Below are positions 14,748 through 46,939 of a DNA stretch of 47,568 nt, in pieces. The position numbers and the translations under genes are program-made. The first letter of the stretch is position 1, and each line of letters opens with the position of its first letter. This DNA is from Desulfobulbaceae bacterium (lineage in GTDB: Bacteria; Desulfobacterota; Desulfobulbia; Desulfobulbales; Desulfobulbaceae): NCBI GenBank assembly GCA_023544645.1, contig JAMJFO010000024.1, forward strand, positions 1 to 47,568, read 5' to 3'. The notes under the pieces were generated by a model. It was not told the origin of the DNA and did not search any database. It saw nothing but the letters and a program-made list of their open reading frames with translations.

Positions 14748-14757
14748 TCTTTTCCTT

Positions 14758-15090: not shown

Positions 15091-15141
15091 GACTGATCAC
15101 CGTTTGCATAATTCCGACAGGCTCCCGGACAACCGGGACTG

Positions 15142-16740: not shown

Positions 16741-16802
16741 TACTCTCCTCTTGGAACCTGTTATTGCATATATACTCATTGATTTTTAGACAAGAAAGAG
16801 GA

Positions 16803-16831
16803 AATATAACGTTAATCCGTACAGACGACAA
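16803..16831 (-). promoter_or_regulatory. serA: Probable serA promoter
   Basis: On the - strand TTGTCG (complement of 16826-16831), 17 bases, then TATATT (complement of 16803-16808) match the sigma-70 consensus at 4/6 and 5/6. It lies about 60 bases upstream of the serA ATG in the divergent serA-gltX gap. Confidence 0.5.
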
Positions 16832-16898
16832 CAAGAAATTATGTCCGGCCCTCAGCGTCAGGTCATGGTGTTTTTCCATGGGGAAAGGAGCTTCTGCC

Positions 16899-16927
16899 TT
16901 GAATAAACCACTGTGACACGATATAAA
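16899..16927 (+). promoter_or_regulatory. gltX: Probable gltX-glnS promoter
   Basis: TTGAAT (16899-16904), 17 bases, then TATAAA (16922-16927) match the sigma-70 consensus at 4/6 and 5/6 with ideal spacing. It lies 84 bases before the gltX ATG, so the leader is short. No T-box-like structure is apparent. Confidence 0.6.
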
Positions 16928-17011
16928 GGCCTCGACTGAAGGCTGCACGATCAGCAAAAAAATGAACCATCCGGGTTTACCACCGGATGCCCTGATAAAA
17001 GAGGAATACCC

Positions 17012-18502: not shown

Positions 18503-18514
18503 CAGGGAACAATC

Positions 18515-20227: not shown

Positions 20228-20356
20228 TACCTGGATGGAGCAGGAACAAAAGCTTTTTTGCAAGGATCATTAACGCCGAATAAAAAACTTTTCAACACCT
20301 GTCATCATGGACATACATAAGTGATCCAGGCAGGGAGGAACCCCTATTCCCGTGCC

Positions 20357-23707: not shown

Positions 23708-23836
23708 TGCCTGTTTACCTCACGTCTCTATTGCTGCTCCCAAACCGCTGCCTGCCCGATATCCTCTGACATAAAGGATCTCCGCATATTCTGATTCGGA
23801 AGTTCCGTACAATTATCTTTATTGCTTTTGCGCGAC

Positions 23837-30427: not shown

Positions 30428-30436
30428 GATTGACAA

Positions 30437-30911
30437 TTCCCCTCAAAATTACCCATTCGGATGCAATTCGATAAAGTCGACCCCTTTGCATCTTCAACAA
30501 AAATCTGCATTACCCAGCACCAATAAATTTTCACAAAATTGCCGATATATATAAATACTATAGTGGAAAACAGACCCACTTGGTATGCGACAAATGGTCG
30601 CACGAAAGGGTGTTGCGTAAACCCGCCTTAAATGATTCTGAAGAGAAATAAACGAAAGAAAAGTCAGGATTATTCATCATTTGCAATCACCCCCATAATC
30701 ACAAACTTTGAAATATAACCGGAGGCAACCTGATATAATCTATTCCGGCTGACCAGAAACAATACTTGTCAAGTTTTCTGGAAGCTTCAACTTAACTATT
30801 TATAGTTAATTATAGCACCTGTTGGCGAAAAATAAAACATGGATGTCGATATTTATATCCGTTCATCCCTATTGTAGACCTCAATTATTTCAACCTCAGA
30901 AAGGAAATACC
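30437..30911. other. AT-rich intergenic region between the cytochrome and helicase genes
   Basis: About 475 bases have no supported gene. The region holds a small palindrome with an adjacent extended -10 on the - strand (30792-30817), described separately. It should contain the promoter of the cytochrome gene and anything driving the small + strand frame at 30912. Confidence 0.5.
30792..30817 (-). promoter_or_regulatory. Extended -10 with overlapping palindrome
   Basis: TTAACTAT (30792-30799) and ATAGTTAA (30802-30809) form a perfect inverted repeat with a 2-base gap. Overlapping it, the - strand reads TGCTATAAT (complement of 30809-30817), a perfect extended -10. No good -35 is seen, which extended -10 promoters may lack. 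Placed at the -10/start region, the palindrome could be a repressor operator. It would give the cytochrome gene a leader of about 380 bases. Confidence 0.35.
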
Positions 30912-31022
30912 ATGACAGAACAGAAAAACACAAAACCAAACGTGGCAGGAAATGCAAAATACGATTCTGGAAAATTCCTACAGAAACTGGTGGTTGTCCG
31001 CCTCCAGTGGTGGATGGAGTAA
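30912..31022 (+). CDS. Small hypothetical protein or gene remnant
   Basis: A 36-residue frame begins at ATG 30912, with a good Shine-Dalgarno AAGGA six bases upstream, and ends at TAA 31020-31022. It is hydrophilic and lysine-rich at first, then VVVRLQWWME. The strand is opposite to both neighbours. The well-placed ribosome site followed by an abrupt stop suggests either a true short peptide or the 5' stump of a gene cut by rearrangement next to the defence genes. I do not recognise it. Confidence 0.3.
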   Translation: MTEQKNTKPNVAGNAKYDSGKFLQKLVVVRLQWWME

Positions 31023-31089
31023 ACCTGTTGCACGAATACGGTTCCCGGAAAAAAGGTCGAAAATAAGTTGGAAAGTTTGCGCGACGCCG

Positions 31090-33900
31090 TCAGAGAAACG
31101 ATCTTTGACGATTGACCAGAACCCGCAAGATGGTATCCAATACCTCGTCGAGGTTACCGCCGATATCCTCGGCAAGGAAACGGAGGACGAAATACCCGTT
31201 TTCCTGCAGCAACCTGTCCTTTCGACGATCACGGCGATAAGCGGAAGGATCAGCCAGATGCTGGGCACCGTCAAGCTCGATCGCCAGGCGGGAATCGGTG
31301 TCGAGCAGATCGACCTCCATTCGTCCCCGTCCGTCGAAAGGGATAGGCAACTCCACATTCAAAAGAAATCTGCCGGCAGTTTGCGGCAGGGATTCCAGCC
31401 GCCGGTATAAAAACGCTTCGCTCGCGCTTCGGGCCCGGTCAACTCCTATGGCCCCGGGAGAGATCCGGGAGGTCGCATTGAGGAACAGGGTGGCAAGCGG
31501 CCTGTCCACCCCGTCGTGAATCAACCGCCGAACGCTGCCGGCATAATTTTGTTTCCAAAGCGGATCCGCTGGTAGCGCTACTTCGGCCGGCCAGCCGGGA
31601 GCAGCGCTGGCGGGGAGCTGAATAGTATAGCCGATCGCTTCATATCCCCGGCAGCGACGTTCAAACATTCTTGCCAGCATCGGCGCCTCGAGATCGGCGT
31701 AATCGTAGATCCTGACTTCGCGCTTACGGTCATGCAGACGGTGCAGACGCCCGGCATACTGGGCAATAATGCCCCGCCACGATACGGGCAGGGCAAGAAA
31801 CAGGGTATCCAGCCGAGCTTCGTCGAATCCTTCCCCGATAAAGCGGCCGGTTGCCAGCAGGACCCGATTCCCGTCTTCCGCAACCGCGGCCAGCCGATCC
31901 CTGGCAGCCTGCAACTGCCTTTTGCCCATGCCGCCCCGCAGGACGATTACCTGGCGGACTTCCCCTTGCAAGCGTTCTTCCAGCAATTTGAGATGTTCCC
32001 TGCGCTCGGTCAACACCAGCGGAAAGCGTCCTTGCCTGACCGCCTCCACGATATCCTCACAAAGTATCCGGTTCCGTTCATCATCCGCAATCAGCTCGCT
32101 GTACAACTGATGGAGCGGGACAGGGGCATCGGTGTCCGCCTCCAACCGGGAGGAAAACGAGGTCGGGCGAACCAGCACGGTATGGGCAAAGGGCCGCGCC
32201 AACGCCTCCTGCCTGGGTTCAACACGATACCGCACCGGCCCGCATTGCATGAATATAATCGGATGATGCCCATCCTTGCGGACCACGGTGGCGGACAGCC
32301 CGGTGACGAACCTGGCTTTGGCCCGCCTGGCGGCAAGCTCGAAGCTACGCGCCGACAGATGGTGACATTCATCCACCACCAGATGTCCGTAGTCACCGAC
32401 CAAATCATCGACCCGGCCCTTGCGCACCAGGCTCTGGATGACAGCAACATCCAGCGCGCCCGTTACCTTTCGGCGGCCTCCGCCGATGCGGCCAATATCC
32501 TCCATCGGCAAATCCAGGAAGGTCGATAAACGTTCAACCCACTGCTCCAGCAGCTGTCGCCGGTGGACCAGGACCAGGGTATTGACGCCGCGTTGGGCGA
32601 TAAGCCAGGCCGCGATAACCGTCTTGCCGAAGGCCGTTGTGGCCGACAAAACCCCTGTATCATGCGCCAGCATCGCCCTGGCGGCTGCCATCTGCCCGGG
32701 CCGCAACTCCCCTTGAAAGGCGACCGGGAGCGGTTTGCCCGGGCAGCGCGCATCACGAGTTTCCGGCCGCACCTGCAACTCCTCCAGCAGGCGCGTCACC
32801 TCTTCAAGGCAACCTCGCGGCAGGCCGATATGATGTGGATAGTCTTCGGCGCAGGCGATGATCCGTGGTGTGTTGTAGATCGACCGACGCATTGCCTGGG
32901 CCTTGTAGAATTCCGGATTCTGAAAGGCCGCCAGACGCAGCAACCGGTTGCGAAGGCCGGGAGGAAGTTCCTCCTTGGCCAGGTAGATCTGATCTTCCAG
33001 CACGAGTTCCAGGCCCTCGGGCAAGTTCGTAAGGGGCGGCTCTTTTCGCCGGCGCGAGGGTGACAGGGACCAGGGCGCCTTGTCGTCTTCCTCGTCTGTC
33101 GGTGCAAGACGGACACCGGTCACTCCGCCTTGCGATTCCGCCTGCCGGACGATTTCCTCCGCCTGCCCCAGACCGATTTTTTGGACGGAGGCCAGGAAGG
33201 CCCATTGGTCCGGGTAAGGAACAAAAGAATCGTCGAGAAAAAGGGAGTTGCCCCGGGCCCGAGATTCCTTCTGCAACGGCAGAGCGATAAGATTGCCCAG
33301 CCCCCCTTGGGGCAGAGTGTCCTGGTTGGGGATGAACCGGTCGTATGAATCAAAGCCGATATCAGGCCGCTTCGCCATGGTCTCGGTGAGGAGAGAGGAG
33401 GCCAGTTTCCGGGCCAGCGCCGCCGGCATCGGTTGCTGGAAAAAGAACCAAACATGGCCGCCGTTACCGGAACGCGACCGCTCCAATACCGCCGGCACCT
33501 GCAGGCGGCGACATGTTTCCAGGAAGGCTCCCACGTCTTTCCGCCAGTATTCCTTGTCAAAATCGACGGCAAGCAGGAAACAGCTCTCATCCAGCAACAT
33601 GGGATAGAGCCCCATGACAAATTCCCGGCCCGCCTCGTCCTGCCCGGAAAGATGCCAGCGGACCACTTCATCCGTCACCGGCAGAAACCGCTGATTGGGG
33701 CATTGAACACACTTCACCCTTCTCTTGTCGCACAGGCCCCGAACCCATTCGTTGGCACAGGCCGGCTGGTACCCAGCCTTACCGCTTTTCCGGCTCTCAA
33801 ACCGGCGGGGGTAGACATCTTCCCGGCCGCGAAAGAGACCGCGGAACAGACCAATCTTGACCTCCGCCGGCGAATTGTTATGCACAATGGACTCAACCAT
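31090..33900 (-). CDS. Primase-helicase-nuclease fusion (AEP-TOTE type, SF2, DUF559-like)
   Basis: This 936-residue protein joins three activities. Residues about 40-230 resemble the archaeo-eukaryotic primase domain of TOTE-type conflict proteins. It has a Cys cluster (C48, C57, C64, C67), the metal-binding DFD at 113-115, SGNGGH at 144-149 and the downstream GNLIALPLQ. Residues about 395-790 are an SF2 helicase with Walker A TTAFGKT (421-427), DECH (510-513), SAT (536-538) and a QYAGRLHR motif VI. Residues about 815-936 resemble a DUF559/VSR-like PD-(D/E)xK nuclease (EVD at 862-864, IELDGAQH at 874-881). It is the last gene of the block, 36 bases after the Pif1-like gene. A defence role is inferred; function is not shown. 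Confidence 0.85.
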   Translation of the reverse strand: MVESIVHNNSPAEVKIGLFRGLFRGREDVYPRRFESRKSGKAGYQPACANEWVRGLCDKRRVKCVQCPNQRFLPVTDEVVRWHLSGQDEAGREFVMGLYPMLLDESCFLLAVDFDKEYWRKDVGAFLETCRRLQVPAVLERSRSGNGGHVWFFFQQPMPAALARKLASSLLTETMAKRPDIGFDSYDRFIPNQDTLPQGGLGNLIALPLQKESRARGNSLFLDDSFVPYPDQWAFLASVQKIGLGQAEEIVRQAESQGGVTGVRLAPTDEEDDKAPWSLSPSRRRKEPPLTNLPEGLELVLEDQIYLAKEELPPGLRNRLLRLAAFQNPEFYKAQAMRRSIYNTPRIIACAEDYPHHIGLPRGCLEEVTRLLEELQVRPETRDARCPGKPLPVAFQGELRPGQMAAARAMLAHDTGVLSATTAFGKTVIAAWLIAQRGVNTLVLVHRRQLLEQWVERLSTFLDLPMEDIGRIGGGRRKVTGALDVAVIQSLVRKGRVDDLVGDYGHLVVDECHHLSARSFELAARRAKARFVTGLSATVVRKDGHHPIIFMQCGPVRYRVEPRQEALARPFAHTVLVRPTSFSSRLEADTDAPVPLHQLYSELIADDERNRILCEDIVEAVRQGRFPLVLTERREHLKLLEERLQGEVRQVIVLRGGMGKRQLQAARDRLAAVAEDGNRVLLATGRFIGEGFDEARLDTLFLALPVSWRGIIAQYAGRLHRLHDRKREVRIYDYADLEAPMLARMFERRCRGYEAIGYTIQLPASAAPGWPAEVALPADPLWKQNYAGSVRRLIHDGVDRPLATLFLNATSRISPGAIGVDRARSASEAFLYRRLESLPQTAGRFLLNVELPIPFDGRGRMEVDLLDTDSRLAIELDGAQHLADPSAYRRDRRKDRLLQENGYFVLRFLAEDIGGNLDEVLDTILRVLVNRQRSFL

Positions 33901-33936
33901 GAGTTCTCAATATGCAGCTATTGCCGCTGTTTATAG

Positions 33937-36417
33937 CTAATTCCCTTCCGCCAGGCTGTTAACATAATTCCGATGGGCAAAAACAAGCTTGATTTCACCG
34001 TATGAATAATCGTCACCCAGGGCTTTTTTGATTTCACCGAGAGTCGCGTCCTGCATGGCAACAATTTTTTGCTCGATAATCTGCTTTTTCTCCGCGTCAA
34101 CAAGCCTGATCACATCAAGCTTCCCCTGGTCGACGAAAAACCTCAGATGCCTTTCGATGGTAGACCTGACCAAGCCCCGCTTGGCGGCAATCCGTTCAAC
34201 GGACAACCCGGACATGAACATGGCAAAACTTATCTGTTTGGTATCGCTCCTGTCCGACCTTTGCTTTTCCGGCGCCGGCTTCCCTGCGGGTTCCGGAAGC
34301 GCGACATCTGTTATGCCGTGCTTTTTGCGGTATGCGGAAACAAGCGCTACCAGTTCTTCGCCGTATTTTTCGGCGGTCCGCGCCCCGATTCCATGTATCT
34401 CTTGCAAAGCCGTGAGAGTATCAGGCAGGTTGACGGCGATCTGAATGAGAACACGCTGGTGCAGAATGCGAAACATGGGAAGTCCGTCAGCCTGGCCCCT
34501 CGTGGTACGCCAGTTTTTTAACTCCTGGAATAATTCAGGATGACCGACATCCGCTTCAGAGTAAATTATTGACTCCGCCTTCTTCCCACCGCCGGGTTTA
34601 TAATTGATTTCCGCAGCGGAAATTGCCCGCAGGTAAGGGGCAGGAGCAAAACCATTCCGGCAGGATTGCACGGCGGCAAGTTTTATGACTGTTTCCTTGT
34701 GCAGGGTGTTCAGCGCGCTGCGTAAATTCCTGCCAAGCTCCTTGTTGTCGGTATCAATATGAACACCTTCCAGGAAAGCCATCAGAATTGCTTCAATTTT
34801 TTCTTGGAAATATCCGGATGCCCTGGTCGTTCTTTCCCGGATAACCGGATCTGATTCCGGCAAGGTATCCCGCCCAAGAAGCGCCTGAAGCTGGCGCTTA
34901 AAATTCTCGCCGACCACAAATATTTCCGTACTTGCCTTTTGTTGCAACGCAGGCAAATCAACAGCGCCGGGGAGGTGGACAACCTGAATATTTTTTGTCA
35001 ACAGCCGGACAAAACGGTTCAAGAGGGATTGTAAATCCTTACAATCAAAGCATGCCAGCAGCAGACGCTGCTGATAGGCGATTTTCGCCGCTGCCAATTG
35101 CTTTCTGGTGGGTGGATTGCGGGCCGCGTTATTGGTAAAATCCGCAACCGCCGCGTCTGTTTTAACAGCTTTGGATGAAATTGGTGTACTGAGCACCATG
35201 CCTTCCAATGTTTTGCACCGACTGAGCGCCACGTAGACCTGTCCGTGCGCAAAAGCTGCCCGGGCATCGATGATGGCTTTCTCAAAAGTCAGCCCCTGGC
35301 TTTTATGAATAGTAATGGCCCAGGCCGGTTTCAGGGGAAACTGACGAAAGACGCCGATCTTATTTTCAACAATATTCCCGGATTCAGGGTCAACCGAATA
35401 TTGAATGTTTTCCCAGTTGACCGGTTCAACAACTATATCTTCCGCATCGCCGGGACATTTAACCCGGATACTCTCGCTTGAAATCTTTGTTACCGCACCT
35501 ATCTTGCCGTTGTAGTACAACTTATCCGATGAGGAATCATTGCGGACAAACATTACCTGCGCCCTCTCTTTAAGCTCAAGCAACGCCGGGGCGGGATAAC
35601 TGTACTCAGGAAACTCTCCCTCAACCTCAGCTTCAAAACAGCGATTTTTCCCGGCTAATGCCGCAAGCCAGTCCTGGTTGATGGCATCCGCCCTGCGGTT
35701 ATGGGTGCAGAGGGTTATAAACCTTTCCCGATCTTTCAGTTCAATATCAGGCACATGGCGCTTGTTGAGCTCCCGCAGGGAAACATGATCCAGGTTATTG
35801 TTTCGTACCCGATTAAGGAGCTGGATGAAGACAGGATCTGATTGGCGGTAAATATGCTGCAGTTCAATGGGGATCAGTTCTGTCTGTTTGAGAGCATTGC
35901 TGCTGAAAAAATAAGGGGAATCATAATATTGTCGCAGGATGGCCCAGTCTTCTTCCTTGACCACCGGGGGAAGCTGGTGCAGATCACCGATCATCAGCAG
36001 TTGCACGCCGCCAAAAGGCTCATGACTGTGCCGATACCGGCGCAGAACCGCGTCCACGCCGTCAAGAAGGTCCGCGCGCACCATACTGATCTCATCAATC
36101 ACCAGCAGGTCGAGACTTTGCATGATCTCAACCTTTTCCTTTTTGATTTTTTTCCGGTGAATATGCTCGGCGCTCTCCTGTCCGGGTATGAACGGGCCGA
36201 AAGGCATCTGAAAAAAGGAGTGGATAGTGACGCCGCCCGCGTTGATGGCGGCAACCCCTGTTGGAGCGGTAACAATCATCCGCTTCGGCGTTATCTCTTT
36301 AACGCAGCGGAGAAAGGTTGTCTTCCCGGTACCGGCCTTGCCTGTCAAAAAAATATGGCAGCCCGTCTCCCTGATAAAGTCGCCGGCTAAGTGTAATTCC
36401 GGATTTTTCGGTTCCAT
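33937..36417 (-). CDS. Pif1-like helicase with HRDC and C-terminal HTH domains
   Basis: This 826-residue SF1B helicase has Walker A GKAGTGKT at 26-33, the Pif1-type APTGVAAINAGGVTIHSFF, DEIS at 108-111, GDLHQLPPV, and the C-terminal TIHKSQGLTFEKAIID and YVALSRCK motifs. After a linker, residues about 632-697 form an HRDC domain and 727-826 a RecQ/YpbB-type helix-turn-helix domain. Pif1 enzymes unwind forked DNA and G-quadruplexes, and HRDC adds binding to single strands or junctions. It starts 6 bases after the SNF2 gene and ends 36 bases before the primase-helicase gene, so it sits tightly inside one transcript. Pif1-HRDC-HTH proteins also occur alone, so a defence role rests on context. Confidence 0.9.
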   Translation of the reverse strand: MEPKNPELHLAGDFIRETGCHIFLTGKAGTGKTTFLRCVKEITPKRMIVTAPTGVAAINAGGVTIHSFFQMPFGPFIPGQESAEHIHRKKIKKEKVEIMQSLDLLVIDEISMVRADLLDGVDAVLRRYRHSHEPFGGVQLLMIGDLHQLPPVVKEEDWAILRQYYDSPYFFSSNALKQTELIPIELQHIYRQSDPVFIQLLNRVRNNNLDHVSLRELNKRHVPDIELKDRERFITLCTHNRRADAINQDWLAALAGKNRCFEAEVEGEFPEYSYPAPALLELKERAQVMFVRNDSSSDKLYYNGKIGAVTKISSESIRVKCPGDAEDIVVEPVNWENIQYSVDPESGNIVENKIGVFRQFPLKPAWAITIHKSQGLTFEKAIIDARAAFAHGQVYVALSRCKTLEGMVLSTPISSKAVKTDAAVADFTNNAARNPPTRKQLAAAKIAYQQRLLLACFDCKDLQSLLNRFVRLLTKNIQVVHLPGAVDLPALQQKASTEIFVVGENFKRQLQALLGRDTLPESDPVIRERTTRASGYFQEKIEAILMAFLEGVHIDTDNKELGRNLRSALNTLHKETVIKLAAVQSCRNGFAPAPYLRAISAAEINYKPGGGKKAESIIYSEADVGHPELFQELKNWRTTRGQADGLPMFRILHQRVLIQIAVNLPDTLTALQEIHGIGARTAEKYGEELVALVSAYRKKHGITDVALPEPAGKPAPEKQRSDRSDTKQISFAMFMSGLSVERIAAKRGLVRSTIERHLRFFVDQGKLDVIRLVDAEKKQIIEQKIVAMQDATLGEIKKALGDDYSYGEIKLVFAHRNYVNSLAEGN

Positions 36418-36423
36418 AGGCCG

Positions 36424-39400
36424 TTAATTTTGATAATCCCCTGCATATAAAAACATTTCGGCGTCCCGCAGCAATTCTTCCATCATGCTTTCGGGCACCG
36501 ACGGACATTGACTGACGCTTAATGATTTGGTGATGAGATCCGCTTCAGGCTGCGTCAACAGACCTTTGGGCAGGGCCTCGCCATACACCCAGACACCGGC
36601 CTCTCGCGGCTCCACCTGATCGTTTAGGCCGGCCCGGTCGGATGCCGCGGCAAGCAGCGAGGACAGAAGCAACTCCACGGCGCTGCTTGAGAGCTTCTGC
36701 CCCGCAAGGACCTGAGCGGCCTGAAACTTTTCCATGGCAACGCTCATTAACCTGGACGGCTTTGTATCATCCGTATCCCGAGCCGCATCATAATACGTCT
36801 GCCCGGCCGCCACAGGAGAAGCGGAACCCAGACGGGAAAGACCATTCAGGGTACGAAGGTCGATGACCGCGACCGGAACCGTTTCCGATGAGAGTTGAGC
36901 AGCCATACGGTCCGCATCCGCATCCACCTGGTCAATAACCGCCAGCAAACCGCCGCCCGAGCCGAGAATCCGTTCAATCCTGCTGCCGAAAGCATCCTGC
37001 AACTCCTCAACACTATGAGCAATGGCCTCTTCCAGGCGTTTATCAGGTTTATTCTCTCCTGCCCGGCCCTCACCTGAGCGTTCCGGAGTCGGATCAGCAG
37101 CCTCAACAAAATCCTGCTCATCTTCGATTACAGGTTCCGGCTTGTTGCCGCCCGCGTAATCAGGGAGATCCTCCAGTAAATTATCCAGCAATTTTCTGGA
37201 AACACCGACAACGTCTTCACAGGCATCCTCTGAAACGACATTATCAAAGAGATCCTTTTTATTTTTGACCATCTCGAGGATCCGCTCTTCATACGACCCA
37301 CTGGCGACCATGGTTATAATCTGCACTTTTCTGGTCTGGCCGAGTCGATGGACCCTGCCGTTGCGTTGCTCAAGAACCGCGGGGTTCCAGGGCACATCCA
37401 GGTTGACCAGGACCGACCCGCTCTGCAGATTCAAACCTACCCCGCCGGCATCCGTGGACAGGAAGACCTGCACGCTGTCGTCTTCCCGGAAACGATCCAT
37501 TAAGGCGCCTCGTTTGGCAGTAGGAACCCCGCCATGCAGACGGACATAACCGATGTTCATCCTCCGCAGTCGTTTTTCCACCATCCTGGTCATCAGCTCC
37601 CACTGTGAAAACACCACCGCTTTCAGTCCCGACTGTACACATGCCTCATCCAGGATTGCGGCAAGTTCATCGATTTTGGGAGATCCCTCGGTTTCCTTGT
37701 CAACCAGACCGGCTGCATTGCAGGCCATTCGCGCCTGTTGCAAGGCAGCCATCAGCCGATTCTGTTCGGTAGGCGTCAAGGGGCGGCGCTGGGCAATCTG
37801 CCCGAGATTCCCGGCAGCGCTCATGGCAGAGTCGTGCAACTCCATCTGCTTAGCAGTCATTTCGATATCAAGGCGCTGCTCTATTCTGTCCGGCAGCTGA
37901 TCGTGAACCAACCGCCGGTCGCGCCGGAGCATGACCGGCGCCAGGCGCTTCCGGAGCACGGAAAGGTTGCGGTACCCCAGCACCTTGCCCCGCTCATCGG
38001 TCAAATGAAAGTCGATCATATACTTCCACAGAGGCCCAAGGACACCGGGGTCAACTACCTGCATCAGGCTGTACAGCTCTTCCAGCCGATTCTCCAGCGG
38101 AGTGCCGGACAGAACAAAAGCGTATCTGCTTGGTATAAGCTTGACCGCCGAGGCGATTTTGGTGCGCCAGTTTTTTATGCGCTGGGCCTCATCCAGGATA
38201 ATCAGATCCGGCCGCAGACTTTCGTTAATAACAGAAAGGTCCCGCAGGATAAGCTCATAATTGATAATATGGAAGGTGTCCTGACCGCGATACTGCACGC
38301 CGCGTTTTGCCGGCGGCCCCTGGATGATCTGGCAGGAGAAATCAGTAAATTTACCGATTTCTCTCGCCCATTGCTGCTTCAGGGAAGCGGGACAGATAAT
38401 GAGAATCTTCCGGACATTTTCACATGTACACAGCCAGGCCGCTGCGCTGATGGCCTGGAGGGTTTTACCGAGCCCCATGTCATCAGCCAGCAGGGCCCGG
38501 CCGGTTCCAGCCAGAAAGGCTGTTCCTTCAACCTGGTAGGGATAAAGCCTGGCACGAACTCCCGGGACCCTGCCGCTTGATCGAATCCGGCCGCGAATCT
38601 CCTGCGACCGTATTGTATGCGCATCATCGGCAGCAAGCTTGCGCGCATGCGCAACGGCATCTTCGCCGATGTGAATATCACCCCGTTCGTCGGCGATTTC
38701 CGTAAACCGGAAAAAATCATCAGGAACACGACCGGTAAAGCTTCCGGATGCATCAAAATAGTCATTCAGGATAGACTGGACGTTTTCCGGAACAACCGGA
38801 GGCCGATGCAGGCGGACCTGTGGGGCATTTTCAACATCCCAGGCAAGATAGACATATGAAAAGGGGGCGGGTTGCCCCTGCAATTCGCCATAATTTTTCT
38901 CTTTTCGAATCTTATGCAGCACAGCTTCAATGTGCTTGCAGGTGCCCAATTGATTGCCAGCAAAGTCAGGACAATTACAATAATTAGCCCGGCGATGGAG
39001 ACTGCGGATAGTAACACGGTAACTTTTCGGAAAATGGGTGGATGACTTGATGGATGCGGCCCGCCAGACACCGAACCACGGTTCTCCGCTGGTTGGCTCG
39101 ACCTGCACCTCCGAACGACCCCGCTTGACCCGTTCTTTTATGGCGCTGTCGGCTGCGCCAAGAAGTTCATTTACCTCACCGCATTGGTCGGCATAAGCGA
39201 AAAGCACTGCCGTAATATGTCTGCAAACAGACTGCCCCTGATCATCATTACAGCTGCACCGGAAAGCAAGGTCATCCTCCTCGGTCAGCCGAACTTCAAC
39301 ATCGCAGGGAAGGTCCGAGTCAGTATCCTCTACCTGCCCCCAGAGCAAAGTATGATCCTGATCTACCTCAATTACCCGGTTCTCCTTATAATAATTGAGT

Positions 39401-39492
39401 CCCCGGCGAATAGCTTCAGCATCCGCGATTGCCTGTAAATCTTCTCCGTCAAAAAAATACGGGTCTTTATCGTGTGTATTTACTTGAGTCAT
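36424..39492 (-). CDS. SNF2-family ATPase with two SWIM zinc fingers
   Basis: This 1,022-residue Swi2/Snf2 motor has two N-terminal SWIM-type zinc fingers: C79/C81/C90/H92 and C172/C174/C185/H187 (NCPDF...CKH). The ATPase has DDMGLGKT at 337-344, DEAQ at 434-437 and a C-terminal helicase lobe ending in QRNGRVHRLGQTRKV. An acidic linker and an alpha-helical tail of about 250 residues follow. Snf2 enzymes move along double-stranded DNA and remodel bound proteins. It lies 82 bases downstream of jetD and 6 bases upstream of the Pif1 gene, with a promoter candidate in the jetD gap. Confidence 0.9.
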   Translation of the reverse strand: MTQVNTHDKDPYFFDGEDLQAIADAEAIRRGLNYYKENRVIEVDQDHTLLWGQVEDTDSDLPCDVEVRLTEEDDLAFRCSCNDDQGQSVCRHITAVLFAYADQCGEVNELLGAADSAIKERVKRGRSEVQVEPTSGEPWFGVWRAASIKSSTHFPKSYRVTIRSLHRRANYCNCPDFAGNQLGTCKHIEAVLHKIRKEKNYGELQGQPAPFSYVYLAWDVENAPQVRLHRPPVVPENVQSILNDYFDASGSFTGRVPDDFFRFTEIADERGDIHIGEDAVAHARKLAADDAHTIRSQEIRGRIRSSGRVPGVRARLYPYQVEGTAFLAGTGRALLADDMGLGKTLQAISAAAWLCTCENVRKILIICPASLKQQWAREIGKFTDFSCQIIQGPPAKRGVQYRGQDTFHIINYELILRDLSVINESLRPDLIILDEAQRIKNWRTKIASAVKLIPSRYAFVLSGTPLENRLEELYSLMQVVDPGVLGPLWKYMIDFHLTDERGKVLGYRNLSVLRKRLAPVMLRRDRRLVHDQLPDRIEQRLDIEMTAKQMELHDSAMSAAGNLGQIAQRRPLTPTEQNRLMAALQQARMACNAAGLVDKETEGSPKIDELAAILDEACVQSGLKAVVFSQWELMTRMVEKRLRRMNIGYVRLHGGVPTAKRGALMDRFREDDSVQVFLSTDAGGVGLNLQSGSVLVNLDVPWNPAVLEQRNGRVHRLGQTRKVQIITMVASGSYEERILEMVKNKKDLFDNVVSEDACEDVVGVSRKLLDNLLEDLPDYAGGNKPEPVIEDEQDFVEAADPTPERSGEGRAGENKPDKRLEEAIAHSVEELQDAFGSRIERILGSGGGLLAVIDQVDADADRMAAQLSSETVPVAVIDLRTLNGLSRLGSASPVAAGQTYYDAARDTDDTKPSRLMSVAMEKFQAAQVLAGQKLSSSAVELLLSSLLAAASDRAGLNDQVEPREAGVWVYGEALPKGLLTQPEADLITKSLSVSQCPSVPESMMEELLRDAEMFLYAGDYQN

Positions 39493-39574: not shown

Positions 39575-40426
39575 CTACTTCAGCAGCAACACTTCCTGTT
39601 CCAGACCAACCCCCCAACGGTCCATCAATTCAACGATAACACGAACCTGAGGGTCATCGTTTTTCCTGAGCCTGGCGAGAACGGCGGTATTTTCGCTGAT
39701 GAGTTCTCTCTTGCCGTATCTAAACAATAAAGTCTCCAAGTCAGGCGGAATGTAAACTTCTGTCCTGCCGGGACAAGCTGCTTTCAGACGCAAAAACTCA
39801 TCCAGGCCGACAGGATCATAGTCTCCGCAATGTATGATCCGGGCTTGTTGCATTGCCGGGGAGGCCAGCCAGTCAATAACTTTACTGCTCAGCCGCCCTT
39901 GGGCGTAAATGGCTATATCGGCCCCTATGTCAAGTTTTTCGAAATTCCAAAAAACTTCAAGATTTTCCACAAAGGCAATGATTCCCGAAAATCCCCACTG
40001 TGTTTCCCCATCGAGACGGAGAGAGGCAACGCCAGCCGTTTCTGTCCAGCCGGCAACCGGCAGGACCTTATTACCGAAGTGCAGCGTACTGTTATGAAAT
40101 CCACGCAACAAAACCGCAATCGGTTGAGCTTTCCGTGCTTTTTTTGAATCCCGCAACTCGGCTACGGCCCTGCTGCGGGATGATAATTTTTTATTAATTC
40201 CCTGCAGCCCGGATGGGTACGTTCTGGCAATAAATGATTCAAGAGCTTTTGCATCATGCAGAACTATCCGCCTTCCCCCTCCACTGGGTTCTGCCAGCAG
40301 AACTTCTGCATCATACAGACTCTGCAGGCGGGATCTGTCCCGAGCGCTCAACCGACTTTCTGCAAGATATCCTTGTGCCTGCAGCCGCATAAGTTTTTCT
40401 GCAAGGGAATCAACCGCCATCTTCAT
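39575..40426 (-). CDS. jetD: Wadjet JetD-like nuclease subunit (Toprim, DUF2220)
   Basis: This 283-residue protein is the nuclease of a Wadjet/MksG-type complex, which cuts closed circular DNA after loop extrusion. The Toprim-like catalytic core is visible as FVENLEVF (E154) and HCGDYDPVGLDEF (D202, D204). The DUF2220 C-terminus ends PPDLETLLFRYGKREL. I chose ATG 40426 (AAGGA four bases upstream), which overlaps the jetC end by 17 bases. A longer frame to 40756 only shadows jetC. It is shorter than the roughly 380-400 residues common for JetD, mainly at the N-terminal arm. Confidence 0.87.
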   Translation of the reverse strand: MKMAVDSLAEKLMRLQAQGYLAESRLSARDRSRLQSLYDAEVLLAEPSGGGRRIVLHDAKALESFIARTYPSGLQGINKKLSSRSRAVAELRDSKKARKAQPIAVLLRGFHNSTLHFGNKVLPVAGWTETAGVASLRLDGETQWGFSGIIAFVENLEVFWNFEKLDIGADIAIYAQGRLSSKVIDWLASPAMQQARIIHCGDYDPVGLDEFLRLKAACPGRTEVYIPPDLETLLFRYGKRELISENTAVLARLRKNDDPQVRVIVELMDRWGVGLEQEVLLLK

Positions 40427-43115
40427 TTTTCCTTTCGATGCGCACCAGGGCGGTTTTCGGATCGAGCATGATCCGGCCCTTTTTTTCACGCAGAAAATAG
40501 AGTGAATCAGCAGCTTCCATTGCTTCAGGGCTTGCCAATACCGCGACAAATCCCATTTTCCGCGCTTCTTGAACAATTGCCGCCAGATTTTCCCGGTCAA
40601 GGCTGGAGGCTTCATCAAGATAGAAAGGTATGGTAACCTCTTTGTCTCCCAGCAGGCCTTTAAGGAGCAACAGATTAATAAGGACCTTGATGGTGATCGT
40701 CGTGCCGTTGGATTCAATGGAATCAAGGTGGGCGTAACGTCGGATTTGTCCATCAACGCTGGTTACCTCGAAATGCAGGTCAAAAAGATCGGCAAGTTCC
40801 ACACGCTGGTGCTTTTTGAGCAGATCACCCAGCTGGCTGTGTGCTTCGCTGACAGCAGCTTTGTCTGCAAACAGGGGGGAGATTTCAGCATCGACCATGG
40901 TTTTAATTCTTTTGGTCCATTCAGGATGCTCACGCAAGATGAGCCGTAGCCGTGCCAGGTTTGAAATAGAAATACGCCCCAGCCGGCGATTGAGTTCATC
41001 TATCCGGGTGATAAGCGTTTGCAGGTCCCGCTTCAGGCCTTTAAAGGAGCTCTGAAGACCTGCAACCAGGCTCTTCCAGAGTTCCTGAACAGCATTTTCC
41101 CGTTCTGCGATGGCCTCGATTTCGGCGCGAAGATTGGCCAGTGTGGCGGATTCGTCTTCTCCAAGATATTTATCATACGTGCGCTGATTAATACCTTGGA
41201 AATATTCGCTGAAGCGCTGCGAGATTTCGGATTGCTCTCTGCTTTTTTGCTCATACATCTCAAGAAGCGATTCAATGTCCCGGTCTTCATGGGCAAAGGA
41301 TTCAAGAGGCCATGAGGAATCCGGTTTGGACAGTTTCCTGAGCCTTTGCACAAGAGTGTCGCGCTTTGTTTCGATTGTTTTGAAAACTTGGCTAAGGGAG
41401 CGCTCTTCATCTCTCAGGGATGATTGCCGGTCCTTGAGCTGCTTTATTGTTCCATTCAGTTCTTCCAATTGATTATTGAGAGCACCTAAGGTTTTCTTAT
41501 TCTTTTCAAATTCAGGAAGATCTTTCTGGTAGTTTCTATAACGGGTCAGTCGATCGGCAATTTTCTGCCACTCTTTTTGCAGTTCCTGTTTTTTTCTTTT
41601 TGCCGGCTCAACATTTTCTGCAGCATCATAAAGCTGTTTCTCCCGGGCAAGAGCCTTTTTCTGCTCCTCAATACGTGTATCGAGTATATCGGCATCACGA
41701 TACGAAGAAATATCAGGCGGATTCAAGGAGGAGAGAACAAGGCGGATCCGGTGGTCATGATAAACGCCTTCCCGGACGTGTCCAAGGACATGTTCCAAGG
41801 TGTCCTTAATTTTTTGTTCATTCAGGAGTTCTATTTCATCTTCACCTTGTGTTAACCCCAATAAATCCGGGTTGATCAGCTTGAAAGCATTTTGTATATC
41901 TTCTTCGGGAAGCATCTGGAGGATCCTGACGGCGGCAAGACGGGAAAACTGGTCACGCTGCTTTTCAAGCCCTGACAATTCCGCCTGCATTCTGGATATC
42001 CTGGCTTGCATTTGAGGAAGGGAAATGTCAGATGCCTGCCCGAGAGATGCGTCGAGCTGTCCCAGCTTCATTTCCAACAGATTGCGCCTGGATTCTTCAA
42101 AATCGACCAGGTAATCTTGAAATTCTTCCGCACCCTTCTGGTGTCTTTCAATGGCGCCCAGGATTTTCCCAATGGACTGATTAACTTGTTGCTGTTCCCG
42201 GTCGCTTTCCTCGATCTTTTTGAAAATGGATTGTTTTTCATCTCTGAGCTGATCAAGGCGGTCTTTGATTTTCTTTTCCTGCCGGGAGAATCCATCCTCT
42301 TGAAGAGAATAGGCGTGAGAGATTTCCTGCCACAGTCCTGGAAGCAGGCGACGCAAACTGTCCCGTGCTGCTGCAAGTTCAAGAACACGCCGTACATCGT
42401 CGGCAATTGCTGTCAGTTCCATCAATTCCCTGGCTTCCCGGCAGACCTTGGTATATTGGCTTGAATACCCTATTTCCAGATCGATGGCACGTTGTTGAAA
42501 TTCACCCTGGTGGATTTCCAGAAGAAATTCTTTCAGTTCATTCTGGCGAAGATGGGCAAGGCGTAGCAGATTACCAAACACGGCGCGAAATCGTTCATAA
42601 TGATCGCGTTGTCGGATCGGCACCAATCCAAGGTTTATACCACGATTATCACCTAATCCAGTGAGGGCGGCTCGCAAATGGCGCGGTTCCAGCAAACGAA
42701 AATCCCTGGCAGCCAGACGGGATCGTATTTCATCCGAAGGGCGAATGCATCGCGCATCATCAAGATAATCGGCGGGATCATACATTCCCTGATAGGAATA
42801 ACGTTGAAATTCATAACCGCGGATGGGTCCCAATCCCTGGACGCCGACCACCTGGTAACCGGTCTGGGTCAAACATTCAAACAGAATGTAACTGTTCTGA
42901 TCGGGGAAGTAGTATTTTCTCGTTTCGGACATCTCCCGGGAAAAGTGCATACTGCGCTGGTCGTCGATGTAAAGAAACTGGAGAACGGCAATCAGTGAGG
43001 TTTTACCAACGTTGTTGGGGCCGATCAGATGCAGCGGATTGATTAATTCAATCTCGCCATAGTCGTATTTGCCGGAACGCACGAGTATCAGTCTTGATGG
43101 GCCGACGATGTTCAT
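40410..43115 (-). CDS. jetC: Wadjet JetC-like SMC ATPase
   Basis: This 901-residue MukB/MksB-like SMC protein has Walker A GPNNVGKTS at 32-40, followed by long charged coiled-coil arms (about 230-340 and 470-730). A second head half has the signature SNGTTITIKVLINLLLLKGLL and Walker B FYLDEASSLD (D834/E835). In Wadjet it is the ATP-driven loop-extruding motor that recognises plasmid-sized circles. It overlaps jetB by 4 bases (ATGA) and jetD by 17. It is shorter than the roughly 1,100 residues of many JetC proteins, with shorter arms. Confidence 0.9.
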   Translation of the reverse strand: MNIVGPSRLILVRSGKYDYGEIELINPLHLIGPNNVGKTSLIAVLQFLYIDDQRSMHFSREMSETRKYYFPDQNSYILFECLTQTGYQVVGVQGLGPIRGYEFQRYSYQGMYDPADYLDDARCIRPSDEIRSRLAARDFRLLEPRHLRAALTGLGDNRGINLGLVPIRQRDHYERFRAVFGNLLRLAHLRQNELKEFLLEIHQGEFQQRAIDLEIGYSSQYTKVCREARELMELTAIADDVRRVLELAAARDSLRRLLPGLWQEISHAYSLQEDGFSRQEKKIKDRLDQLRDEKQSIFKKIEESDREQQQVNQSIGKILGAIERHQKGAEEFQDYLVDFEESRRNLLEMKLGQLDASLGQASDISLPQMQARISRMQAELSGLEKQRDQFSRLAAVRILQMLPEEDIQNAFKLINPDLLGLTQGEDEIELLNEQKIKDTLEHVLGHVREGVYHDHRIRLVLSSLNPPDISSYRDADILDTRIEEQKKALAREKQLYDAAENVEPAKRKKQELQKEWQKIADRLTRYRNYQKDLPEFEKNKKTLGALNNQLEELNGTIKQLKDRQSSLRDEERSLSQVFKTIETKRDTLVQRLRKLSKPDSSWPLESFAHEDRDIESLLEMYEQKSREQSEISQRFSEYFQGINQRTYDKYLGEDESATLANLRAEIEAIAERENAVQELWKSLVAGLQSSFKGLKRDLQTLITRIDELNRRLGRISISNLARLRLILREHPEWTKRIKTMVDAEISPLFADKAAVSEAHSQLGDLLKKHQRVELADLFDLHFEVTSVDGQIRRYAHLDSIESNGTTITIKVLINLLLLKGLLGDKEVTIPFYLDEASSLDRENLAAIVQEARKMGFVAVLASPEAMEAADSLYFLREKKGRIMLDPKTALVRIERKNEDGG

Positions 43116-43663
43116 GTCTTTTGCTCCTCGGTCTGCGGAACCTCATGCTGTTTCAACATTTCCAGACAGAGGTCGAAGAAGCGATATGCCGGTGCGCGGA
43201 AACGGAATGTATTCTCCGTGAGGCGTTGGCAAAAACCGAAACGATCCAGTTGGCGCACAATGACACGTAAGCCGTCCTCATCAAGGATGCCGGATTCCTT
43301 GAGATACGCCCGAAAGCGGGCCGCCTTGAGATGAGGCAGATCGGGAATGGCAAAGGTCTGTGTCATGAGTGTGTCGACAATCGGTTGACCATTATCGGCG
43401 ATAGACTCGATGAGGATAAGAACGAACAACGCCATGCGGGAGGCTTGAGGACTCAGGCTGTCTTTGCCGCGGAAATAAAAAAAATCACGGGGATGCTGCT
43501 CCAGCCGGAAGCCGAGATGCTTGAAAAGATCATGATAGGCATCCAGATTCTCCCGCAGTGATAAATATGTCCCGCCGTCTTCGGCACATAGGTGCCGCCC
43601 TCGTCGTAGGGCATCGAAGATTTCACTAAGATACGGCAGCGCAAATGGACTATTTGGGCTCAT
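43112..43663 (-). CDS. jetB: Wadjet JetB-like accessory (MksE/DUF4194-like)
   Basis: This 183-residue protein matches the KITE-type subunit that bridges kleisin and SMC heads in MukE/MksE/JetB complexes. It is built of two winged-helix-like halves: LRENLDAYHDLFKHLGFRLEQHPRDFFYFRG, then a C-terminal half with ILDEDGLRVIVRQLDRFGFCQR. It overlaps jetA and jetC by 4 bases each, so the three are translationally coupled, and its place between kleisin and SMC is the expected one. Sequence identity to named families is weak by eye; the call rests strongly on the order. Confidence 0.82.
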   Translation of the reverse strand: MSPNSPFALPYLSEIFDALRRGRHLCAEDGGTYLSLRENLDAYHDLFKHLGFRLEQHPRDFFYFRGKDSLSPQASRMALFVLILIESIADNGQPIVDTLMTQTFAIPDLPHLKAARFRAYLKESGILDEDGLRVIVRQLDRFGFCQRLTENTFRFRAPAYRFFDLCLEMLKQHEVPQTEEQKT

Positions 43664-44877
43664 AGGCGTTTTCCTATTCGAAGAGGCCGAGCGACCAGGA
43701 AAATGTCGGAAAGAGCGTATCGCCGATCCTCCTCGGCAAACTGCATTTCCCCCGTATCACCAAGATAAATACGACCGTAAGCTCTCACCAGTTCTCCAGT
43801 GGTTGCTTCTGGATATTGCTCTAATAACCAGGCAATAAGGTCGGGAATCGGCAAGGAGGACTCCAAACGGGAATATAATTCTGACGACATAATGAACTCA
43901 TGGACTAATGTCTCATCAGCATCAGGGAGAGGTTCAGGAGCGGTTGGCTCATATCCGTGCACATCATGAAAAAACGCCTCCAAAGAGGTATCCGAAAAAG
44001 TCCCTTCGATCCTCCAAATCGGGATGGCAAACAAAGCATCAAGCTGCAGGCCTGCAAGTCCTGCACGGTCGATCCTTTCCAGGGCAAGGGATGCCCCACG
44101 CACCAACTCACTATCCCGTTTGAGAGAAACATAGAGGGGTTCCACCTCTCTCATGGATTCATAAAAATTTTCGGCTACTTCCCGGCGAAATCGCAGTAAC
44201 CGTGCCCGGCAGCGAGAAAATTCACGGTAAAGTGCACCGTCGAGGATAAAAGTTTTGCTGTTCGTCAGCAGACTGCGTTCTATGTCATCAAGGCTTGCAT
44301 CCATTGCCTTTTTTACATCGATCAAGTCACGCAGCGGCTCCAGGTGACGGCTCCAGAGTCGATTGATGATCTCAAAGCGCTCCCGAATACTACGTTGATC
44401 CCTATTGGATTTAAGCTTGAGAACCTCAGCAATGATTGCCTCGCGATTTGCGTGAGAATCCTGACGAATGCGTTCTATTACCTGTGAGATGTCAGTAAGC
44501 GCCCGTGCGGCCTGGTTGTTCAACTTCTGGAGAGATGCACCATCCAATTCGCTGCGCAGATCCTCCATATCAGTCAGATATCCTTGAATAACTTTGGCGG
44601 AAGTGAGTCGGTGTTCACGAAGAAGAAATGACAGAAGCGCACGAATTGGGGAGGTGAGCTCGAAGGTGGCGGTGGCATCAGGGACCGGCTCAATGATGCC
44701 GAGGGATATAAGTTGATTGATGACCGTTGCGGAGCTGGGATCACCTTCAGTGCGAGAAGCATCAATCAAATCCCGCAGATCCGCTTCTGTCAGCCCAGTG
44801 CTGCAGTAGAATAGATCGATCAGCAGAGAATAATGTCGACCTGCAAAACGGAAAAAACTTTGAGGATTTGTAGCCAT
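43660..44877 (-). CDS. jetA: Wadjet JetA-like kleisin (MukF/MksF-like)
   Basis: This frame encodes the first subunit of the operon. I chose ATG 44877, so that the protein (405 residues) starts MATNPQSFFRFAGRHYSLLIDLF, close to the family's FF..L.......Y...L.L opening. The frame stays open upstream to 45078, but that part runs into an IS256-family end and overlaps its transposase in another frame. A winged-helix region (about 20-110), a helical middle and a C-terminal winged-helix-like part fit a kleisin. The end overlaps jetB by 4 bases. An alternative ATG at 44946 is possible. No clear Shine-Dalgarno precedes 44877, so the start is uncertain. Confidence 0.78.
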   Translation of the reverse strand: MATNPQSFFRFAGRHYSLLIDLFYCSTGLTEADLRDLIDASRTEGDPSSATVINQLISLGIIEPVPDATATFELTSPIRALLSFLLREHRLTSAKVIQGYLTDMEDLRSELDGASLQKLNNQAARALTDISQVIERIRQDSHANREAIIAEVLKLKSNRDQRSIRERFEIINRLWSRHLEPLRDLIDVKKAMDASLDDIERSLLTNSKTFILDGALYREFSRCRARLLRFRREVAENFYESMREVEPLYVSLKRDSELVRGASLALERIDRAGLAGLQLDALFAIPIWRIEGTFSDTSLEAFFHDVHGYEPTAPEPLPDADETLVHEFIMSSELYSRLESSLPIPDLIAWLLEQYPEATTGELVRAYGRIYLGDTGEMQFAEEDRRYALSDIFLVARPLRIGKRL

Positions 44878-44959
44878 ACGATTGATTTGGTTTAAGCAAA
44901 AGGTAAAGGTAAAGTACCAGCCTTGTTCTCTTCGCACAAGGAACATAAGAACCTGATAT

Positions 44960-45658
44960 GGCCTTGTAAAAGATTTTGTGTAAACAGCTCCGTTGATCAT
45001 ATTGTTGGCATTCTGTCTTCGAAAATAATAGTAAATTGATTCAAGGATGATTTCCAGTTTCTTATCGGCATAGTCCATTTTTTCTCAATATTCTTCAGAG
45101 CCAGATAGAGCAGTTTCAGCATAGAATCATCATTTGGGAACGATCCCCGATTCTTCGTTACCTTCCGTAAAGACATGTTTACGGATTCAATAGCGTTGGG
45201 TGTATAAATTGCCTTGCGAATATCTGGCAGATAGGAAAACAGGGGGTAATCCGCTCCCGGTTCGCCGCCAGGATTTGCCGATCGAGGGATGGTTCTTGTT
45301 CCATTTTTCCTCGAACAGTTCAAGGTTCATCTCAGCTTCTTCAACCGTAGGAGCTTGATAAATGGCCTTCAGGTCGGCAGCGACCTCCTTGCGCTGTTTC
45401 CAGGAAATATAGTTCAGGGTATGTCGTACCATGTGAACCAGGCAAAGCTGAACCTGGGTATCTGAAAAAACGGTCTCACGCGCTTCAAGAAAACCTTTGA
45501 GGCCGTCAACGCAGGCGATAAAAATGTCCTGAACACCACGGTTCTTCAACTCGGTCACAACCTGCAGCCAGAACTTGGCACCCTCGGTCTCGGCAGTCCT
45601 CATGCCGAGAACTTCTTTAATCCCCTCAAGTTTGACACCAATGGCTAGGATTCTGTCG
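44960..45658 (-). pseudogene. Truncated, frameshifted IS256-family transposase remnant
   Basis: Two overlapping - strand frames match the C-terminal half of an IS256 (MULE-type) transposase. The first holds NRILAIGVKLEGIKEVLGM, DIFIACVDGLKGFLEA and VQLCLVHMVRHTLNYI. The second holds YLPDIRKAIYTPNAIESVN and LKNIEKKWTMPIRNW, ending at TAA 44997-44999. A frameshift near 45265-45290 separates them, and sequence before about 45658 no longer matches, so the N-terminal half is missing. Past the stop lies GCCTTGTAAAAGATTTTGTG (44961-44980), typical of an IS256-family terminal repeat. No matching repeat is seen at the other side. The element is dead, and its end lies about 80 bases before the jetA start. 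Confidence 0.82.
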
Positions 45659-46056
45659 GAGTTCGCCCCCCCAAAATGGGGCGGCCACTAACAGACTCCT
45701 AGAAAAGGAAGTGCTTGCAAGTCGTCAAATGAATGATTGAAGGCAAACTGACAGATGCGGTGAAACAAGAGATTAGTTACAGACCAAGGTTGTCGAGACG
45801 GCCGACAGTATTCAATTTGTGGTCATCGAGGAGATGAGAATAAGAATGACCTTATAGACATATTTCAGCCTTATAAAAGGTATTTCTTTCCTCTTGCGCG
45901 GTAGATATCCTTCCCAGTTTTCCGGCCTTTTTTTGGGCGCAATTTATAAGCAAAACACTGCCACTTGGAGCTAATTCATGCTAATTACAGCTAGAGATCA
46001 AGCAAAAAGAAACACGGGGAAACAACCAAGGGATCAACGACTTGCATGATTTTTAG
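45659..46056. other. Gene-poor junction region with an inverted repeat
   Basis: No complete gene is supported. At 45664-45683 CGCCCC and GGGGCG form a hairpin around CCCAAAAT, flanked by GGAGT (45658-45662) and ACTCC (45695-45699). This looks like an end or a junction of another mobile element at the exact place where the IS256 similarity stops. On the - strand a 33-codon open stretch at about 45888-45990 (YKLRPKKGRKTGKDIYR and so on) could be the tail of a lost basic protein such as an integrase, but it is too short to name. Confidence 0.4.
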
Positions 46057-46106
46057 TGGTGCCCCCGGCAGGAATCGAACCTGCGACACCAGGATTAGGA
46101 ATCCTC
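46057..46106 (-). tRNA. 3' half of tRNA-Arg (anticodon CCT), probable attachment site
   Basis: On the - strand the sequence carries anticodon loop TTCCTAA (CCT), a full T-arm GCAGG-TTCGAAT-CCTGC, acceptor half-strand CGGGGGC, discriminator A and encoded CCA (46057-46059 complement). The D-arm and 5' acceptor strand are missing: the expected 5' GCCCCCG does not occur upstream, and AT-rich DNA begins just past the anticodon stem. A tRNA that keeps only its anticodon-to-CCA part is the usual trace left by a tyrosine-integrase element at its far end. It is not a working tRNA gene. Confidence 0.75.
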
Positions 46107-46375
46107 GAACAATTCAATTATATCAAACAGATACATACATTAAGCGCAATTTTAGGCGCAATTCGATCGGAGTTAGTTTCTCACCCCTATCCTTATCGTT
46201 AATTTTGAGATATATCTCAAAATTCCCAAATATTAGCAGTACGAAATTTACTCCCTATCCCACATCAATAACCATCTAACACATAAAATCTGGATAGTCT
46301 GCAGATACAGTCCCCCAAGATTTCCCTGTATAAAATCCTCAGATACATCTTAATTCTTAAATATTGGAGGACATG
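46107..46375. other. AT-rich region before the ClpP-like gene
   Basis: About 270 bases have no gene. It contains two nearby GCGCAATT copies (46144-46163; another is at 45938-45945), a perfect 24-bp palindrome at 46201-46224, and a TATAAA at 46329-46334 without a good -35. The promoter of the ClpP-like gene should be here. Confidence 0.45.
46201..46224. promoter_or_regulatory. Perfect 24-bp palindrome, possible operator
   Basis: The 12-base half-site AATTTTGAGATA is followed directly by its exact reverse complement. There is no loop and no T-run, so a terminator is unlikely. A symmetric AT-rich site 150 bases before a gene start fits the binding site of a dimeric regulator or an element-specific recombination protein. 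Confidence 0.5.
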
Positions 46376-46939
46376 ATGGCTAAAAATAATGGTGACAGTA
46401 AAAATTCCCTTAGTGATTATGGCATTATCTATTTATCAGGAGAAATATCTACCAGCACATCGGAGAGCATCTGCAGAGACATTATTGAGTACAACATTAA
46501 GGGTGAGGTTGATCACATACAGATGATTATCAACTCACCAGGAGGATCCTGTCCTGCTGGCTTTGCGATTATTGATATTATGGAATGGTCCGCAATCCCT
46601 ATCTTCACAACCGGGCTTGGCATGATTGCCTCAATGGGTTTGCTGGTTTTTATGACAGGCAAAGCTGGTCGACGAGTTATTACCCCGAGAACATCTATTC
46701 TTTCACACCGCTTTTCTTCCATCTCAGCTGGCAACCATAGCCAACTGCTTGCGGGAAGAAAAGAGGAAGATCTGGAACACACCAGGATCGTTAATCATTA
46801 TCTGCAATACACATCAATAAAAGATCCGCAGGAACTTGAAGATAAACTTTTACGCGATGTAGATACTTGGTTGTCCGCTAATGAAGCAGTCAGCTATGGC
46901 ATTTGCGACGTTGTAGAGTCGGTAAAGATTAACTCTTAG
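46376..46939 (+). CDS. Orphan ClpP-like serine protease
   Basis: This 187-residue protein has the ClpP/crotonase-like fold and a complete catalytic triad: S86 in GMIASMGLL, H111 in TSILSHRF, and D163 in DVDTWLSANEAVSYG. The oxyanion strand INSPGGS (53-58) and the C-terminal SANEAVSYGICD also match. I chose ATG 46376, with GGAGG five bases upstream. It lacks the usual neighbours tig, clpX and lon and is more divergent than housekeeping ClpP. It lies next to the tRNA-Arg fragment and before a gene cut by an IS3 element, so it is probably mobile-element cargo. Whether it works with a Clp ATPase or alone is unknown. Confidence 0.88.
   Translation: MAKNNGDSKNSLSDYGIIYLSGEISTSTSESICRDIIEYNIKGEVDHIQMIINSPGGSCPAGFAIIDIMEWSAIPIFTTGLGMIASMGLLVFMTGKAGRRVITPRTSILSHRFSSISAGNHSQLLAGRKEEDLEHTRIVNHYLQYTSIKDPQELEDKLLRDVDTWLSANEAVSYGICDVVESVKINS

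Follow-up and report, generated by a model that had tools for sequence, protein, structure and literature searches.

A half tRNA-Arg(CCT) gene as a probable junction between two tRNA-targeting mobile elements in a Desulfobulbaceae genome

For elements integrated at tRNA 3′ ends, the part of PMC5704250 used here describes a three-step history, integration, decay to a CIME and accretion of a newcomer at the common site, which leaves a chimeric internal att where the decayed element, still keeping its att, abuts another. The locus reported here resembles such CIME/ICE/IME accretion, and its junction, together with an array found in a relative, matches by analogy what is known of ICEs and cis-mobilizable elements that accrete in tandem. 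Unlike the cases in that part of PMC5704250, it belongs to an uncultured Desulfobulbaceae-related genome, involves tRNA-Arg(CCT), is known from sequence alone and has its outer ends beyond view. A second comparison is offered by Dehalococcoides, for which the section of PMC3146451 cited here reports tandem ssrA repeats and 15 islands without integration modules. In both cases the 3′ end of an RNA gene is repeated many times in direct tandem orientation, and many islands lack an integration module, whereas a serine recombinase and the tmRNA gene are concerned in Dehalococcoides, and a tyrosine recombinase and tRNA-Arg here. Finally, the tRNA-site islands of Islander, as outlined in the portion of PMC4383910 considered, have a regenerated tRNA at one end, a displaced 3′ fragment at the other and a tyrosine integrase. 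The same components were found here, although only one end per contig is visible.

The window, that is the whole stretch of 47,568 nucleotides that was analysed, carries near its right end the 3′ half of a tRNA-Arg(CCT) gene, from the anticodon stem to CCA (Table 1). It corresponds to nt 28-76 of the tRNA and is identical over this length to the intact gene at C63:54495-54570 (E 5.4e-19). Here C63, C60 and C95, without prefix, are contigs of the window's own genome, G000, and L-numbers designate fetched loci. The first-pass annotation had described a 50-base 3′ part; the half tRNA is real, but base 46106 is G in the window and C in the tRNA, so that the exact repeat is 49 bases long. Neither ARAGORN nor Rfam called a tRNA at 46057-46105. 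A search with the 27-base 3′ end, allowing up to 3 mismatches, returned exactly two copies in G000, the window half and one intact gene (0 matches with reversed controls). The latter, called tRNA-Arg(cct) by ARAGORN, is the sole intact copy found in G000. Presence of the 3′ half alone is also what a split or permuted tRNA gene, with its 5′ half elsewhere, would give. This explanation was rejected, because an intact tRNA-Arg(CCT) exists and the window contains no 5′ half (0 matches in two pattern searches); integrase arms moreover flank the half, and we give it practically no credence. An open frame antisense to the half runs from 46046 to 46279 on the plus strand (GAPGRNRTCDTRIRNP...). Spurious frames of this kind are often annotated over tRNA genes.

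The first-pass annotation had read the half as the mark of an integration site, and had proposed that an intact tRNA-Arg(CCT) with the same 3′ part should be found next to an integrase gene. Such a gene is present on C63, with 49 nt in common with the window, and the integration-site reading stands. Downstream of this tRNA, a terminator-like stretch precedes a 93-codon ORF, which is followed by the integrase gene (beginning 421 nt past the tRNA), HU, and genes for two uncharacterised proteins of 117 aa (d117) and 203 aa (m203), after which the contig ends at 57401. The integrase is a 351-aa tyrosine recombinase (PF00589, E 3.3e-31). Identity as an integron integrase (IntI) was ruled out, with scores of 64 bits for TIGR02249 (cut-off 265) and 46.5 for NF011946 (cut-off 435), both far below the cut-offs. 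The nearest relative in plasmid records is 38% identical. No match in viral_contigs was obtained with integrase peptide patterns and two arm patterns, a weak negative for the integrase since the peptide patterns are exact and narrow. As for the 93-codon ORF (L005 14714-14995), the initial 49 residues are similar to the N-terminal part of the integrase and the remainder looks like a coiled coil; no Pfam match was found for it, nor any counterpart in the other mapped loci. It may be an accessory protein that binds the arms, or the product of a deletion.

Relatives of the integrase were found in 31 of 73 genomes of the bacterial family (E ≤ 1e-20), and d117 in 17 of the 73. In the mapped loci, the integrase lies directly 3′ of tRNA genes for Arg(CCT), Arg(TCG), Leu(GAG), Leu(CAG), Leu(TAA), Leu(CAA), Pro(CGG) and Pro(GGG), commonly with HU-d117-m203 downstream; about 28 kb separate integrase and d117 in G010. 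No tRNA was present within the fetched stretch beside the integrase relatives of L099, L105, L113/L151, L119, L148, L155, L158, L160-L162 and L171. G000 itself has a second integrase, 84% identical, at tRNA-Arg(TCG) on C60. C63 and C70 each end inside elements; one G060 contig carries both a half and, about 66 kb away, an intact tRNA with an integrase. A limited literature search found no earlier description of this integrase/HU/d117/m203 element family.

The first-pass annotation had placed a bounded element at higher coordinates, on the 5′ side of the half, and a P-type arm was detected exactly there. It contains a repeat with a 12-nt period scoring 10/11, a value reached in 0 of 200 shuffles, and an exact 21-mer of this arm is unique to the site within the window (0 expected). 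Just before the integrase gene, a perfect 11-mer repeat of period 12 was seen in 11 of 16 tRNA-to-integrase intervals (0/200 shuffles each), and two further intervals scored 10/11 (1 and 2 of 200 shuffles); in the remaining three, L039, L104 and L170, arm repeats did not exceed shuffles. Eight other P arms gave 3/200 (one arm), 12 to 19/200 (four) and 71 to 103/200 shuffles (three). They are singly weaker, because shuffles reach similar scores, and their support comes from the alignment of the window with five copies in G006, a genome described below. The C63 integrase has TTCCGTCCAAAA arms and the window arms are of TTGCGCCYAAAA type; likewise, TTCCGTCC-type repeats accompany the C63 and C60 integrases, and TTGCGCC-type ones the window. 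Since the arm types differ, the window halves possibly belong to another lineage than the resident integrase, and on this sequence comparison the window site may have been made by integrases other than those of C63 and C60.

Table 1. Features on either side of the tRNA half, in window coordinates
Feature	Position	Strand	Evidence
Fragment with start of element core gene d117, colinear with C63	30883..30956	-	74 bp, 82%, E 7.7e-12
Nucleotidyltransferase-region cargo fragment, also in G006 array	30955..31064	-	110 bp, 78%, E 3.4e-17 to L036 16841-16949
SNF2 helicase, PIF1/HRDC helicase and PrimPol-like genes	31090..39492	-	Pfam and PADLOC
Four-gene Wadjet/MksBEF-like block (472, 183, 901 and 393 aa)	39575..45078	-	MksE PF21980 E 4e-31, 183-aa protein
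Mutator/IS256-type transposase fragment	45187..45603	-	PF00872 E 6.4e-32, profile positions 202-315 of 379
Integrase C-terminus remnant (residues ~329-351)	45776..45848	-	63 bp, 81%, E 1.3e-11 to C63 integrase 3′ end
P′-side arm and integrase N-terminal coding remnant, left-hand element	45846..46023	-	blastn to L036 cassette ends, E 2.6e-20, 2e-15, 3.6e-12
tRNA-Arg(CCT) 3′ half, attachment-site core	46057..46105	-	49/49 to C63 gene; nt 28 boundary also in 5 same-genus copies
P-side arm, two direct arm-type repeats (ATTGCGCCTAAA-ATTGCGCTTAAT) at ~46138-46162	46106..46162	-	Aligned with 5 L036 arms
ClpP-like protease, right-hand element cargo	46364..46939	+	PF00574 E 5e-32
IS3-type transposase fragment, contig end	47097..47567	-	rve PF00665 E 8.7e-27

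On the right-hand side, the ClpP-like protein reached the cut-off of none of the listed NCBIfam models for ClpP. The IS3 fragment at the contig end has an 82% identical copy on C95; joining the contigs through it was tried and given up, the match being at 82% only.

The sequence on the left of the half is also that of an element. The whole junction, 45855-46162, aligns unbroken to a cassette junction of G006 (313 bp, 72.5%, E 9.8e-37). The integrase on this side is reduced, its first ~25 codons being fused to the last ~20 by an internal deletion; the C-terminal remnant was also seen by tblastn (65% over 23 aa, E 7.8e-5). The d117 fragment is 15 kb from the half, in the expected order and orientation, and abuts the 110-bp piece that is similar to G006 cargo. 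A HU-like match at ~45.74 kb (20 bp, E 0.074) is too weak to count. No half or arm closing the left element at its outer end was found by three patterns, or by the arm+half model on G000 (E ≤ 10). Because the P′ arm, the deleted integrase and the d117 fragment all lie left of the half, the defence block (31-45 kb) is probably, on sequence grounds, inside a second, decayed element which abuts the first at the half. The first-pass annotation had put this block outside the element, a placement which the left-hand remnants disfavour. The Wadjet/Mks-like genes are divergent, with weak PADLOC matches only, for JetC (SMC-like) and JetD-like proteins; we take the order of the four genes to be JetA-B-C-D.

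It is worth weighing these remnants against the simpler view of a single island on the right, bounded by the half and the C63 tRNA, with everything on the left, defence block included, being chromosome or an unrelated neighbour. This view accommodates the existence of an intact tRNA beside an integrase, the 49/49 match of the half to that tRNA, and the P arm on the right side. It does not accommodate the continuation of element sequence to the left (P′ arm, N- and C-terminal integrase remnants and d117 fragment), and we consider it improbable. We favour, with considerable confidence, the explanation that the half is the attachment-site core of tRNA-targeting integrative, probably conjugative, elements, and that the site is a chimeric junction formed by tandem accretion, with the ClpP element on the right and a decayed Wadjet-like/helicase element on the left. 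A tyrosine recombinase would join a circular attP, composed of P arm, tRNA 3′ half, P′ arm and integrase gene, to the part of tRNA-Arg(CCT) from the anticodon stem to CCA. Each insertion would restore the tRNA by means of the 3′ half that the element brings, and displace the older 3′ half to the far end of the element. The P arm on the right of the half would then be the end of the ClpP-carrying element, which runs off the contig, and the P′ arm with deleted integrase on the left would be the start of the older, decayed element that now holds the Wadjet-like/helicase block. Site-specific recombination as the cause, and this order of events, are what we infer from the arrangement. It appears to be ordinary island biology, with a slightly unusual tandem organisation.

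We also infer that the window would follow the C63 tRNA at one locus. No contig joins the two, and the final 1.1 kb of C63 gave no match to the ends of other contigs. Window DNA from 14000 to 31000 was compared with 7 genomes of the genus: 6 of 6 relatives hold parts of its first 6.2 kb (serA, gltX, glnS), and the DNA beyond is found in essentially none. In the window, glnS lies on the chromosomal side. What follows glnS varies among relatives, with multihaem or NHL-type proteins being frequent, as in the window. There, a 2199-aa protein at 23837-30436 (minus strand), with cytochrome c7, paired CXXCH and Calx-beta matches, adjoins an NHL-repeat protein. No tRNA was present in the post-glnS stretches fetched from relatives. 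The G006 equivalent of the C63 locus (kin758-tRNA, on its contig C45) is empty, the tRNA being followed by a 1218-aa kinase; this kinase, sought as the right flank in G000, had no match there at E ≤ 1e-60. In G004, another tRNA-Arg(CCT), beside two glgC-like genes (named by eye), is directly followed by an apparently chromosomal gene. These uninterrupted G006 and G004 loci indicate that empty sites exist. On the sequences compared, synteny in relatives gives no tie between window and C63.

The half could be a stray copy, brought about by integration at a secondary site, rearrangement or misassembly, the junction not lying at a tRNA-Arg gene at all. The glnS side without tRNA-Arg in the fetched relatives would fit, as would a contig that stops within an IS, of which another copy, 82% identical, exists in G000, and the difference between window arms and those of the resident integrases. 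Set against this, the gene order after glnS is highly variable among relatives in any case, and the half is identical to the sole intact tRNA. We regard a stray copy as rather unlikely; accretion at the tRNA remains our preferred reading.

A pattern scan of genome_contigs had a sole match, CAMYLK010000032.1, a contig of an uncultured Desulfobulbaceae (G006, of the same genus as G000; L036 = G006:C32:10001-27634, with the array at L036 9184-17634). Five tRNA-Arg(CCT) halves were found there in 6.7 kb, on one strand, every one starting at nt 28. The units between halves measure 1.3-2.2 kb, far smaller than the ssrA islands in the cited section of PMC3146451. Their cargo consists of AAA-DUF4143, Fic, mobile mystery proteins A and B (above cut-offs) and another Fic; past the last half comes a nucleotidyltransferase-like unit, named by eye, for which the one protein tested gave no family match. 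Units 1-3 have common ends of about 290-390 bp, 79-95% identical, with the integrase cut after the first codons, and units 4 and 5 are without P′ arm. Units 2 and 3 possess both arms and halves, and no integrase or tra ORF; unit 1 is cut by the contig end. A scan of the 73 genomes with model R1 under strict filters, counting matches that reach model position 3 or lower, gave 11 places spread over 7 genomes; G006 has five of them, the window is another, and G043, G021, G056, G040 and G039 contribute one weaker match each. Most remaining matches covered the tRNA part only. A dense array of halves was thus seen in 1 of 73 genomes, and the half at the G039 site is a different one, tRNA-Leu-like by eye. 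At the G043 and G039 loci (L089 and L094), a related AAA-type ATPase gene stands beside the arm and tRNA half, the half being Arg-type in one and Leu-like in the other. On another G006 contig (L039, G006:C70, 3844-7941), a complete tRNA-Arg(CCT) lies about 4 kb from a 5′ half of such a gene (nt 6-38), with similar sequence upstream of both, the reverse of the usual 3′-half duplication.

Integron gene cassettes are likewise tandem small units with their own cargo, toxin-antitoxin-like cargo included, and a common recombination site. They differ in that the site here is a half tRNA with phage-type arms, and the integrase is far below integron cut-offs. The integrase-less units of one or two genes flanked by tRNA-Arg(CCT) halves (with cargo such as Fic, mobile mystery A/B, AAA-DUF4143, nucleotidyltransferase and perhaps ClpP-like), with their common integrase-deletion end, might represent in this lineage a putative integron-like gene capture, for which an ICE integrase at the tRNA would act in trans, a speculative idea that we think has little chance of being right.

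Conjugation genes were found with related elements. In G021, a related arm and half at a contig end is accompanied by the T4SS proteins TraC, TrbI, TraK, TraE and TraL and by TrfA, MqsRA and AbiEii proteins; in G047, an HD-domain protein and a coupling-protein-like (T4CP-like) protein (PF12696, E 1.9e-17) come after m203; and G000 has a TraC gene on a separate contig of 5.9 kb, colinear with the tra genes found where the ~66-kb G060 island ends in the half tRNA. Given these F-type conjugation genes, we read the tRNA-targeting elements as probably an integrative, conjugative family. The conjugation genes of G021, G047 and G000 are not physically linked to C63 or the window, so that the ICE status of these two loci is by extension from relatives.

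The analysis thus describes an integrase/HU/d117/m203 element family that uses at least 8 tRNA genes in this bacterial family. With it, the defence block of the window would move from beside an island to within a decayed mobile element. In the five-unit array of G006, stepwise tandem accretion would be open to test on a small scale; each insertion should swap the 3′ half of a working tRNA.
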